Source: a virus. Taken from it: DNA of 20,552 nt. Within the stretch, counting starts at the first letter, position 1. Each line of letters begins with the position of its first letter. Positions 16,453 to 20,552 of this stretch are shown piece after piece. Made by a program: the position numbers and the translations under genes. Under the pieces are notes generated by a model, which worked only from the letters and a program-made list of their open reading frames with translations, did no database searches and was not told the DNA's origin. The DNA lies in the IMG/VR virus record IMGVR_UViG_3300030002_000130, positions 1 to 20,552 of that record, one strand, 5' to 3'.

Positions 16453-17466
16453 TTAGAAATACCCACCCGTACCCTCTGCAGGTTTGGGTTGGAAGAAATT
16501 TGATACCTTACTCGGGATGCTACTCAAGGCACTACCGACCTTGGATAACGTATTCAAGCCGAAACCCATAAGACCATTCGGCGACTTAGACTGCATAGCG
16601 CTTTGTAATCCGGAACTGCTCGATGCAGACATAACGTCAATATCCACATCGTTGGTAGCGAAGTCTACTGTAGCCATCAAGCGACCACTAGCATCACTGA
16701 CCACTTGCAACGAGTCAATGTTCGTCGGCCACGCATCGTAGTACGTGATGGTCATCACCTCCTGCCTATTTACAGATAGGATGCTGACGGGGATGTTCCG
16801 GTAGAAGCCCATGTCACCAGGTGCGTGAGGTCTTCCCCACTTGCCTTGGTTCGCGTAGTCAGCGGCCTTGCCATAACGAAGGACAAGATCCTGCCACCGT
16901 TTGAGGTACATCATCGTCTGCATGGAATTGTCGAGGAAGAACGTGAGCTGCAATCCTGACACCGAGTACGTCTTCGGTATCTTCTCGAAGTGCCCACGAC
17001 GATACACGTCTTGTGTTTCGATAACACGGAAGGGGAGTGTGCCTGCCTCAACGTAGTACCAAGGGAGAGTAACTCCCGGTAGTAACGGAGGCATACAGAA
17101 CCAATTGAAGTTGAGCAGAGCGTCCTGCCGCGCATTGATTCCTTGGAAGGGATTGCCCGGATTGGCCTGACCTTGAGCGAGACTGGCGAACGAAGGGTCG
17201 CTACCGAAGGAAGCTTTGGTCATGTCGTTCGGTATGCCGAGCAGCTTCGACTGGGCACCTGAGAAGTCGCCAGTGAGTGCAGACATGGCGGCACTACGCA
17301 GCCCGTTAACTGCGGAGCTAGAGGCGCGGTTGATGCCACCGTTGATCTGCGACTGGACATTCATCATGCCATACGTCGCGTTGTTTGTCAGGGATTGCCG
17401 AGCACCGAGAACAGGAGATGTCGCTGCGTTCTTGGCACCAGCTATGAGGCCGGAGAAGGATGCCAT
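16453..17466 (-). CDS. Tail-tube-fold protein (gp19 family; tube or tube initiator)
   Basis: Residues about 120-278 resemble T4 gp19: LPGVTLPWYYVEAGTLPFR, then GLQLTFFLDNSMQTMMYLKR, YRNIPVSILSV, and YYDAWPTNIDSLQVVSD, followed by a strand ending DFATNDVDIDV. The WPTN-[I/V]-xx-LQ phrase is the clearest match; in T4 gp19 the same spot reads WPTNVGELQ. The protein is 337 residues, roughly twice gp19, with an Ala/Ser/Gly-rich extension of about 110 residues at the N-terminus and about 55 at the C-terminus (ending GTGGYF). The length is closer to gp54, so it may be a tube initiator with the main tube elsewhere. It opens the tail cassette after a terminator-like region. The start has only a weak Shine-Dalgarno. 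Confidence 0.75.
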   Translation of the reverse strand: MASFSGLIAGAKNAATSPVLGARQSLTNNATYGMMNVQSQINGGINRASSSAVNGLRSAAMSALTGDFSGAQSKLLGIPNDMTKASFGSDPSFASLAQGQANPGNPFQGINARQDALLNFNWFCMPPLLPGVTLPWYYVEAGTLPFRVIETQDVYRRGHFEKIPKTYSVSGLQLTFFLDNSMQTMMYLKRWQDLVLRYGKAADYANQGKWGRPHAPGDMGFYRNIPVSILSVNRQEVMTITYYDAWPTNIDSLQVVSDASGRLMATVDFATNDVDIDVMSASSSSGLQSAMQSKSPNGLMGFGLNTLSKVGSALSSIPSKVSNFFQPKPAEGTGGYF

Positions 17467-17926: not shown

Positions 17927-18139
17927 TTACCGTGCGTCTTTCGACACGTTCATTATGTTGTGGAACATAGTGGTGATCGCGTCGAAATCATCAGAGTCCA
18001 GACTCTTGCGAATCTCTTTGCAGAACGACTCAATTCGACCTACGTCGTATAGTGCCTTGTGTCTTTTGTTCTGAATGGCTTGTTTTTTCTCAGAGGCGGG
18101 GCTTGCGGCCTGCAACCTATTAGACGCGTTGATTTTCAT
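17927..18139 (-). CDS. Small protein with the shared MKINAxxRL N-terminus
   Basis: This is a 70-residue, mainly helical, charged protein starting MKINASNRLQAASPASEKKQ and ending MNVSKDAR. The N-terminus matches those of two other genes nearby (at 19621 and 19908), while the rest is unrelated. The start has GAGGG 9 nt upstream and lies 21 nt after the preceding stop. No catalytic motif or membrane segment is seen. If the shared peptide is a virion-targeting or propeptide signal, this would be a small internal virion protein; that is inference. An A-S-E triplet at residues 15-17 would fit the [S/A/G]-x-E cleavage rule reported for phiKZ-type prohead proteases, but such triplets occur by chance. 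Confidence 0.78.
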   Translation of the reverse strand: MKINASNRLQAASPASEKKQAIQNKRHKALYDVGRIESFCKEIRKSLDSDDFDAITTMFHNIMNVSKDAR

Positions 18140-18160
18140 TTTGTGTAACCCTCGGTGTGA

Positions 18161-18616
18161 TTAAAAAATGCCGGTGCCGTAGTCGAATGACGCACCACCC
18201 CAGGTGAGTAATATCGCGGGATCGATAGATCCTCCCTTCGGACCTTGACGAGACAGGTCGACCTGATCTCGAATGATGCGACCCTGCGGTGGCATGTAGT
18301 ATCCGATGGACGGGTTGGGATCAACAGAGATGATCTCTTCAGACACATAGAGGTCACGCTCAATGATGATCTCGTCTCGTGCGTCCGGATGCTCAGGCCA
18401 CTGCTCGCCGACTTTGTAGATGATGTTCAAACGTGCGGTGCCTTGGGCATACAGCGCAATGTCGAGCACGTTAGCAATCTTCTCGCAGTCGTTCATCTCG
18501 CAGATGACGGCAAGCGTCTCCTTGGGCTGAGCGTTCTTCATGGCAATCAAGTCTCGAGTAATCTGCGCCTCGACTGCCGGGGTGTATGTGTCGTAGATGA
18601 GACGAATCGCAAACAT
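18161..18616 (-). CDS. Unknown 151-residue protein
   Basis: The protein starts MFAIRLIYDTYTPAVEAQIT and contains a helical region with three Cys-free turns followed by ETLAVICEMNDCEKIANVLD, then a beta/loop-rich second half (IGYYMPPQGRIIRDQVDLSR) ending DYGTGIF. I recognise no family. There is no signal peptide or membrane helix. The start is well supported: AGGAG lies 6 nt upstream of the ATG and 9 nt separate it from the preceding stop. It sits between two genes that carry the MKINA-type N-terminus but does not carry it itself. A virion or virion-assembly role is possible from context only. Confidence 0.75.
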   Translation of the reverse strand: MFAIRLIYDTYTPAVEAQITRDLIAMKNAQPKETLAVICEMNDCEKIANVLDIALYAQGTARLNIIYKVGEQWPEHPDARDEIIIERDLYVSEEIISVDPNPSIGYYMPPQGRIIRDQVDLSRQGPKGGSIDPAILLTWGGASFDYGTGIF

Positions 18617-18625
18617 GGATGACTC

Positions 18626-19621
18626 CTAAACCTTCAGCGCACTGAGCGCTGGAATCTTTACTGCCAGATGCAACTTCTTGGCAGCGGTGTAGAACAACGC
18701 TATCAGGAAATTCCAATTGCTGACTGACAGGTAGTTGAACAGTGACACGCCGGAAAGCCCTGCAGCCAAAAGAACAAGGCCTGCAATGCCTGACGGAGTA
18801 GCGAACAGATCGTAAATCGAGAAGTTACCTTTCAAAGCATCGATCACAGCATCAAGAGCCATGTCCGAATCAAAGTTACCACTGAACGACATGTTGAACC
18901 ACATCCAGATCAGAAGGCCTGCCAACGCAGGGCCAGCAAGCTTCTTCAGGAGAGGGTACTTGGCTAACAGGTCGTCGACAGCCTTGGCACTCTTCTGTAC
19001 ATGCTGGAACGCACCACTCTTCTCTAGGTCATGCACCACAGCCATCAATCCGTGATGCAGTAAGGCTGCTGTTGCTTTGACTGCCTTGACTGCCGTGATG
19101 ACTGAGAACTTCAATGCCTTCAGAAGCTTGAACACGCTACGCTCTTTGAACGCTGCGACGATCTCTGTCTTGCTTACCTTGAGATGCTCGGAGATGTCGG
19201 CAATCAGCTTCTTGTATTCGGAAAAGAAATGTGTAAGCACAGAAGGCAGACTGAAAGCATTGAGCTCGTCTGCCTCTTTCAACGTGGCGCTCAGGAAGGC
19301 ACAGTATTGCTTGTAGCTGACGTCTTCGATTGACGCAGTGACGGTCAATCGATTAGCAGCCTCGATCGAGTCCTTCTCTTCGTCGCCGTCTTCTTCAGAG
19401 TCTTCAACGTCGTCCTCTTTGCCCTCGTCGTACCAAGCATCTTCAGGCTTGATCGGATCCTTAGGCTTCGGAGGGACGATAGGTGCTGAAGGCTTCACTG
19501 GCGTCGTAGGTGTAGAAGGCTTGACCGGCTCTACAGGCTCTGCCGACTTTTGCATCTCCACCGGCTTTATCGGCTTGGGGTTGTACTCTGAAAGGAGGCG
19601 CTGAGCAGCGTTGATCTTCAC
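18626..19621 (-). CDS. Membrane-associated protein with MKINA N-terminus, Pro-rich and acidic linkers
   Basis: This 331-residue protein starts at GTG (MKINAAQRLL), overlapping the previous stop by four bases (GTGA), with AAAGGA 6 nt upstream. Residues 15-60 are Pro/Lys-rich (PKPIKP, PVKPSAPIVPPKPKDPIKP) and 64-85 strongly acidic. At 86-92 a second copy of the motif appears (IEAANRL). A helical, Lys/Ala-rich region spans 105-225. Three hydrophobic segments follow at about 228-246 (LAGPALAGLLIWMWF), 276-297 and 302-314. I have the impression that the 160-315 part recurs in other large phages, but I know no function. An ejected or internal virion protein that inserts in the host membrane would fit; so would a protein acting in the infected cell's membrane. 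Confidence 0.78.
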   Translation of the reverse strand: MKINAAQRLLSEYNPKPIKPVEMQKSAEPVEPVKPSTPTTPVKPSAPIVPPKPKDPIKPEDAWYDEGKEDDVEDSEEDGDEEKDSIEAANRLTVTASIEDVSYKQYCAFLSATLKEADELNAFSLPSVLTHFFSEYKKLIADISEHLKVSKTEIVAAFKERSVFKLLKALKFSVITAVKAVKATAALLHHGLMAVVHDLEKSGAFQHVQKSAKAVDDLLAKYPLLKKLAGPALAGLLIWMWFNMSFSGNFDSDMALDAVIDALKGNFSIYDLFATPSGIAGLVLLAAGLSGVSLFNYLSVSNWNFLIALFYTAAKKLHLAVKIPALSALKV

Positions 19622-19908
19622 TCCTTATCCTTTCCAAGTTTGCGTTCCAGGTGTGGTACCCACGCAGGCTTAACACGCACTGGAGGTTTGTGTTGGAGCC
19701 TCTGCTGGTGCAGCTCAGTGGCAGACGGCAGCTTGTCGATATACGACGGGGACTTCTCAGAGTAAGGAGCGCCCATGAACAGTTTGTCGTTCGGATGCTC
19801 ATGGTTGTATCTCGAGCGCTCTTGCGAAGACATGTCAAGCCACCACTGAGGCGTATCGTGGCTGATAGTAGCACTCATCCTCAACCTCGTAGCCGCATTG
19901 ATCTGCAT
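19618..19908 (-). CDS. Small protein with MQINAATRL N-terminus and WW...HP motif
   Basis: I choose the ATG at 19908 (MQINAATRLRMSATIS, 96 residues): GGAAGGA lies about 5 nt upstream, and the start is 1 nt after the previous stop. A longer start at 19923 lacks this. Residues 22-42 (WWLDMSSQERSRYNHEHPND) match a pattern I recall from many large-phage virion proteins: two tryptophans, 'LS..Eq..Y...HP.SK'. The C-terminus is basic and Pro-containing (KPPVRVKPAWVPHLERKLGK). The function is unknown; the combination with the shared N-terminal motif suggests a packaged or structure-associated protein. It overlaps the next gene by four bases. Confidence 0.78.
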   Translation of the reverse strand: MQINAATRLRMSATISHDTPQWWLDMSSQERSRYNHEHPNDKLFMGAPYSEKSPSYIDKLPSATELHQQRLQHKPPVRVKPAWVPHLERKLGKDKE

Positions 19909-19909
19909 G

Positions 19910-20158
19910 TCAGTCCTTCCCAACGCCCTTGGCTAATGCCTTCGCGTCGTCCAGAGAGATGGTCATCACTTTCGTAATCTCGTCAGGCAGCACGAGACGG
20001 ATGTTCTTGCCATTGGACGATTTCCGAACACCAAACTTGTCGCCCTTCTGGATCACGACTGGCTTACCACGAAAGTCGAGAGTGATGGGCTTACCAGCTT
20101 GGTAAGAAAACCAGTCGTAATCCGTGTCCGGCTTGATGCGCGCCATAAATGAGTACAT
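19910..20158 (-). CDS. Small unknown protein (82 residues)
   Basis: This protein starts MYSFMARIKPDTDYDWFSYQ and continues with a beta-rich middle (KPITLDFRGKPVVIQKGDKF) and a short helical end (LDDAKALAKGVGKD). The ATG at 20158 has an excellent Shine-Dalgarno (AAGGAGGT, 7 nt spacing), so I prefer it to the internal Met at residue 5. I recognise no family. The 'G-K-P-V-V-I-Q-K-G-D-K-F-G-V-R' stretch has the look of a small beta-barrel domain. It begins a tightly coupled run with the next two genes. Confidence 0.8.
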   Translation of the reverse strand: MYSFMARIKPDTDYDWFSYQAGKPITLDFRGKPVVIQKGDKFGVRKSSNGKNIRLVLPDEITKVMTISLDDAKALAKGVGKD

Positions 20159-20209: not shown

Positions 20210-20552
20210 TCACAGTGGTTTCAAGACAGCAGTACCCTTGGTTGCAATGTTGCGGTTGCGCAGCTCTGCTCTGTAGTTGGGATCCTTCTGTGCTCGCATT
20301 GCAATCTTCACAATCTTCGCATTCAAGTCGCGCTTTTTTGCCTCTTGGTTATAAACGTGTTGCTTCTGTCCCGTCTTCCCAAGAGTGAACAGATCGTGAT
20401 GGTGGAACTCGCGGGAACCTAAGCCGGGGGAGCGAGAGTACCCTGCACCCAACGAGGCCGTCGTCAGGTGATGCACTTGTGCATTGACTTCAGCGTCGAA
20501 ATCGGAGTCTTCTTCTCCCTCTTCGCCGTCGGGCCTCTGTTGCTCGGTCTCG
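20210..20552 (-). CDS. Unknown protein, partial at right edge
   Basis: The frame is open to the window edge, so the N-terminus is missing. An in-frame GTG at 20476 is not needed as a start, because coding-like sequence continues upstream: a strongly acidic tract (PDGEEGEEDSDFDAEVNA), then VHHLTTASLGAGYSRSPGLG. The C-terminal part is basic and helical (EAKKRDLNAKIVKIAMRAQK, then NYRAELRNRNIATKG). No catalytic motif is seen. The acidic tract followed by a hydrophobic turn and 'LTxTAS'-like residues resembles the region around the second motif copy of the membrane-like protein at 18626-19621, but the match is short. The 50 bases between this stop and the next start hold only a Shine-Dalgarno. 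Confidence 0.7.
   Translation of the reverse strand, partial: ETEQQRPDGEEGEEDSDFDAEVNAQVHHLTTASLGAGYSRSPGLGSREFHHHDLFTLGKTGQKQHVYNQEAKKRDLNAKIVKIAMRAQKDPNYRAELRNRNIATKGTAVLKPL

Follow-up and report, generated by a model that had tools for sequence, protein, structure and literature searches.

A short peptide shared by diverse proteins in a clade of jumbo myoviruses, a probable docking tag for virion cargo

Why three otherwise unlike proteins, encoded close together in a viral genome, should begin with the same peptide is the question raised by a stretch of 20,552 nucleotides (the window), a jumbo-myovirus fragment of 20.5 kb represented by the IMG/VR record IMGVR_UViG_3300030002_000130. The tail tube protein of the window (16453..17466, minus strand) has relatives in Achromobacter phage Motura and Burkholderia phages BcepSauron and Saruman, and more distant ones in Pseudomonas phages Lu11 and HRDY3, while a DNA similarity search of named phages against the window yielded no match. 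Three minus-strand genes carrying the peptide are located in the interval between the tail tube gene and the portal gene, of which the C-terminal part is present (20210..20551, minus strand). Two untagged minus-strand genes share this interval, namely a KMPT-N domain protein conserved next to the portal in the clade (19910..20158; PF20294, 1.4e-14) and a conserved gene, p18616 (18161..18616). Contig L002, which overlaps the window and is identical to it over the query gene, continues upstream through the portal, RuvC and terminase genes and adds four further tagged genes of the window virus just upstream of the window, with the tags MVQINAATRL, MKIEINAASRL, MTETRINAATRL and MKIEAADRL. Contig G013 (81 kb) contains the same upstream genes and then runs further; all four of its tagged genes lie inside the first 6.5 kb.

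The first tagged gene of the window (19618..19908, minus strand, 96 aa) starts at 19908 downstream of AAGGA. Its tag, MQINAATRL (19882..19908), belongs to a conserved stretch that goes on with RMSA and is followed by a WW..M....Q..Y...HPNDK module, an HPxSK-type mini-module at residues 22-46 (19771..19845). Tagged relatives are encoded at position 1018 of G008 and position 65959 of G003, and the combination of the tag and a module of this type occurs in about 14 other clade proteins. This second shared module can be written as [WF]..[LM]....[QK]...[YW]...HP.SK, stands directly or soon after the tag, and has carriers that include proteins of G004, G008, G010, G014 and Sauron (three times); gp33 of phage NCTB opens with an HP.SK-like stretch without the tag. 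At residue 160 of Motura QDH83616, MEIFASTRLQAT with an HPESK module starts at an internal methionine, such that either the database start may lie too far upstream or the tag may be internal.

The second tagged gene (18626..19621, minus strand, 331 aa) starts at 19621 with a GTG that overlaps the stop codon of the upstream gene (GTGA), the first residue being methionine through initiation. Its tag, MKINAAQRL (19595..19621), is followed by a proline-rich and acidic linker, a second tag copy (IEAANRLTV, residues 86-94, 19340..19366) and a hydrophobic domain. The region 18677..19366 is homologous to tagged proteins of G002, G003, G005 and G011, and part of it to the untagged gp33 of phage NCTB. 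In alignments the internal copy falls on the N-terminal tags of relatives (MKIEAARRLRAS in G002, MKIEAHARLLAS in G003), the NCTB relative being without a tag; this suggests that a second tag and the linker were added to the gene on top of an ancestral tag. The third gene (17927..18139, minus strand, 70 aa) starts at 18139 with MKINASNRL (18113..18139), behind a weaker GAGGG located further away, and a search for relatives of its product found none. The coordinates of all three genes were confirmed, and in pairwise BLASTP the tag was the sole match among the three proteins, which are therefore not copies of one gene; the initial annotation had likewise described them as sharing an N-terminal peptide and otherwise unlike.

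The clade examined comprised the window virus, Motura, BcepSauron/Saruman and IMG/VR relatives, all jumbo myoviruses. Among the genes called in 13 genomes or contigs, 142 encode N-terminally tagged proteins, up to about 20 per genome, of which at most a few are unreliable (entries past position 20000 of G017, a record joined across a 387-base gap); possible mis-called starts among apparently internal tags, e.g. Motura QDH83616, were left out of this count. The suggestion that the motif would find further carriers genome-wide was thus borne out by the search of relatives. With the tag removed, the 142 proteins formed 89 sequence clusters, and the three window proteins showed no BLASTP similarity to one another beyond the tag, which excludes the tandem duplication and divergence of a single gene that had been named as an alternative. 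For a strict motif, [ILV]xA[AS]xRL, 102 occurrences were observed within the first 11 residues compared to 1.84 expected from its internal density. The reversed strict motif was not found in the first 11 residues across the clade, and the strict motif was absent from the outgroup genomes PaBG, Yoloswag and Peetri. Across IMG/VR, a degenerate DNA pattern of the tag matched 45 stretches, strongly clustered in few contigs; in the records behind these stretches a looser pattern matched dozens of times and the backward pattern once. Furthermore, in a motif-blind search of N-terminal k-mers the tag was the top signal in five genomes (16 genes in Motura, 20 in G004, 11 in G005, 12 in G002 and 10 in G009, against null maxima of 3-5). 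BcepSauron did not rise above its null in this test (5 vs 6); the tagged genes of this phage nonetheless fit the motif, and some of them have tagged homologues in other genomes. T4, included as a positive control, did not exceed the null, having too few proteins with a capsid-targeting sequence (CTS). The sharing of the tag is not due to chance.

The tag is about ten residues long, with the consensus [K/Q/E]-[I/L]-[N/E/Q]-A-A-x-R-L-x-A-[A/S/T]. By position, 116 tagged proteins have K/Q/E, I/L/V, N/E/Q, A, A, x, R, L, x, A (85/116) and A/S/T, where the conservation of A, R and L is partly a product of the search expression, and conservation is absent past the A/S/T position. An alignment of 117 tagged proteins gave MKIxAAxRLxA and then nothing. 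Each virus has its own dialect: IEAA in G002 and G003, IQAA in Motura, LNAA in G004 and INAA in the window virus.

The tag is not confined to N-termini. Strict motifs deeper in proteins numbered 32, some of them mis-called starts, compared to 3 for the reversed motif. Eight of the 32 begin within the last 18 residues, as in ISAARRLMGQ, ITAAQRLAAGA, LGAAARLVATAQ, LGASARLLATAK and VSAARRLLGK, each ending at the stop codon, and other internal copies sit between domains. The positions on cargo are 102 N-terminal strict and 8 C-terminal, plus the other internal strict copies. The C-terminal and linker copies indicate that the tag is not simply an N-terminal propeptide; of the targeting or propeptide tag originally proposed, the interchangeable tag was upheld and the simple N-terminal propeptide was not. 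A very acidic family (LFLQ.NP.PSD.QFH.LA...GVD.ETLE with repeated LNDG) carries the tag internally or C-terminally in every genome in which it was seen (BcepSauron 50615, G004 23837, G005 19480, G014 28232, Motura QDH83608), and is a possible core or scaffold component.

Tagged domains also occur without the tag. Untagged relatives are present in phage NCTB and Xanthomonas phage PhiXhv-15, the latter with an untagged DUF3175 protein, a domain that bears the tag in nine proteins of the clade. In Motura, G002 and G005 the genes for portal, KMPT-N protein, p18616 and tail tube follow one another without a break, and tagged genes split this order at differing places in BcepSauron, G004 and the window virus. 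Given these differing insertion points in a conserved order, and DUF3175 being tagged or untagged depending on the phage, tagged genes behave as accessory cargo genes. The 89 clusters, the conservation at the peptide level and the untagged relatives in NCTB and PhiXhv-15 lend strong support to the earlier proposal that the tag is interchangeable among diverse cargo proteins.

Motura, BcepSauron and several tag-bearing contigs encode a homologue of the head maturation protease near the gene of a major capsid protein (MCP) homologue, and in most genomes the tagged genes are found around these two genes, mostly on the strand of the MCP gene. The share of tagged genes lying no more than 40 kb from the MCP gene was 16 of 18 in Motura (p=3e-6), 18 of 21 in G004 (2e-7), 18 of 19 in G005 (1e-7) and 11 of 12 in G002 (2e-4), with less clear clustering in BcepSauron (5 of 8, p=0.07). 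The Motura cluster lies just upstream of the head genes and downstream of the tail fibre genes. Gene position suggests late expression of the tagged genes. None of the MCP, portal and tail tube proteins starts with the tag. The MCP N-termini of the clade contain tag-like stretches, K[IV]xA[AT][RK]xP and NGE[LMIF]NASSK; these ignore the dialect of the genome, and a tag shared by the MCP is not claimed. Between about residues 35 and 65, the MCP of all clade members conserves NGE[LMIF]NASSK and [LIMV]xA[AS], the latter near residue 62. One might speculate that the end of the tag, L-x-A-[AST], and this [LIMV]-x-A-[AS] correspond to a shared site of the head protease.

Pfam matches among the tagged proteins include NUDIX, DUF3175, saccharopine dehydrogenase-like, SprT, GNAT and ribosome modulation factor domains, and a PHROG match identified a T7-0.7-like kinase (phrog_15752, 2.1e-21). 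Where identifiable, the cargo is predicted to be of host-takeover types. Ribosome modulation factor was matched in Pfam by one of 117 tagged proteins; a tagged 78-residue protein of Motura (142823-143056, QDH83625) resembles this factor by eye. Motif inspection suggests that some tagged proteins are probable R-S-E ADP-ribosyltransferases (ARTs). An ART-like family of Motura has invariant R99, S129 and E215xE217 and is encoded by three genes that are true paralogues, and the protein at G004 28659, with an internal tag, contains VYRGL...SSWTSD...QKEVVVQG and was not recognised by Pfam. Structure models of two ART-like cargo families were of low confidence, with meaningless Foldseek matches, and sequence and profile searches of the PDB with ART-like cargo returned nothing.

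A close parallel among known systems is offered by T4, where ten residues of IPIII are enough for capsid targeting, the ADP-ribosyltransferase Alt is packaged and injected, and the CTS has been proposed as a general route for loading proteins into the head (PMC9026906). As with the CTS of IPI, IPII, IPIII and Alt, a short peptide, in the clade mostly N-terminal, is common to proteins that diverge in the rest of their sequence; effectors are among the carriers in both cases, an ADP-ribosyltransferase in T4 and probable ones in the clade. The T4 CTS is found on about four proteins and is removed by gp21, whereas the clade tag is carried by up to about 20 proteins per genome, has C-terminal and linker copies and dialects, and probably directs packaging and may undergo cleavage. 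The tag pattern had no match in the T4 genome. We infer that the tag works like the T4 CTS while being unrelated to it in sequence. In SPN3US, gp53 and gp54 have identical N-termini and 34% overall identity, for which a CTS-like role was suggested (PMC5694885). In these ejection proteins and gp47 the propeptides are mostly long and confined to a few head proteins of a different giant-phage lineage, with no counterpart to a short tag that recurs across dozens of unrelated proteins. Bacterial microcompartment encapsulation peptides and encapsulin cargo-loading peptides are short docking sequences by which varied cargo is brought into a protein shell, and they can occupy either terminus of the cargo. 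The clade tag likewise occurs at either end of its cargo, although the shells and the sequences differ. Polyvalent and MuF-fused phage effectors (PMC9503650) comprise the same cargo classes (ART, NUDIX) and are thought to be packaged and injected, but these are large multidomain fusions, while the clade proteins are separate and small with the peptide alone in common. A literature search, with most subscription journals and preprints outside its scope, found no earlier description of the tag.

Taken as a whole, the tag is probably a cargo-docking peptide by which its carriers are captured into the prohead, injected with the DNA and enabled to act early on the next host. Tagged proteins would be made alongside late genes, and the tag, whether N-terminal, C-terminal or between domains, would be captured by a component of phage head assembly, for which the scaffold or core and the inner face of the capsid are candidate receptors. 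Captured proteins would be built into the prohead, possibly with proteolytic trimming of the tag, and then injected with the DNA for early action on the next host; the recognition dialect would vary between viruses. Prohead or virion targeting is the most likely role judging from the linkage to head genes, the effector repertoire and the analogy with T4. That host-takeover proteins of types acting early are encoded in a late head region and bear one common docking peptide is best read as loading into the virion, and it has been argued that ARTs and NUDIX proteins are often packaged in the virions of myoviruses (PMC9503650). A search of the literature for the virion proteome of a tagged phage found none. 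A virion proteome of 14 proteins has been published for PaBG (PMC7412058), which has no tag and is unusable as a test of packaging. Should the tag indeed mark packaging, the set of proteins that a jumbo phage injects, about 20 and mostly of unassigned function, would be readable from its genome. The tag would also be a short portable sequence with which proteins could be loaded into very large phage heads, and the differing dialects of related viruses would provide a way to study the evolution of cargo recognition.

The same tag, dialects and use at either terminus would be expected of a peptide that docks to any common partner. The tagged proteins could accordingly stay unpackaged and be directed to a different late structure or partner within the infected cell, for instance to a site of replication or assembly, to the membrane, to a phage chaperone, or to a common inhibitor by which effectors are silenced. 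The clustering with head genes and the presence of early host-takeover types in a late region favour packaging without being decisive, and we regard this alternative as unlikely. Docking on the tail, baseplate or neck and not in the head interior would be consistent with the location of the window genes between portal and tail tube, and of the Motura cluster downstream of the tail fibre genes. In most genomes, however, the tagged genes surround the protease and MCP genes, and for a set of about 20 different enzymes T4 offers a precedent in the head, not in the tail; docking on the tail, baseplate or neck is quite unlikely.

The shared peptide could also be a by-product of DNA, in the form of a duplicated start cassette or a translation-enhancing start region copied before many genes. 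Several tagged genes do adjoin, and a few clusters are truly paralogous, e.g. the three ART-like genes of Motura. Nevertheless, synonymous codon use at the conserved tag residues is about as varied as elsewhere in each genome, with codon identity at the background level, and the 30 bases upstream of tagged genes are hardly more similar than those of other genes, which points to selection on the peptide and not to recently copied DNA. Together with the number of clusters left after tag removal and the tags at C-termini, these comparisons rule out single-gene duplication, start-cassette copying and a translational enhancer as general explanations, and an origin as a DNA by-product has a negligible probability.

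A broader form of the docking proposal is an address code, in which each jumbo-phage lineage would have one docking tag and its receptor, working from either end, such that any gene gaining the tag would become injected cargo, with Erwinia phage Yoloswag using a different tag in the same manner. This extension is plausible but tentative. In Yoloswag (KY448244), another recurrent N-terminus, ME[I/K][I/V]VSLSA, was observed on about 8 unrelated proteins including one NUDIX protein, and is possibly the tag of another lineage. In the motif-blind test the top N-terminal k-mer of this phage occurred in 6 genes, where the null reached 4 at most, and VSLSA is present in the gene calls at 82794, 88108, 155342, 160416, 167475, 187078, 199138 and 199805.
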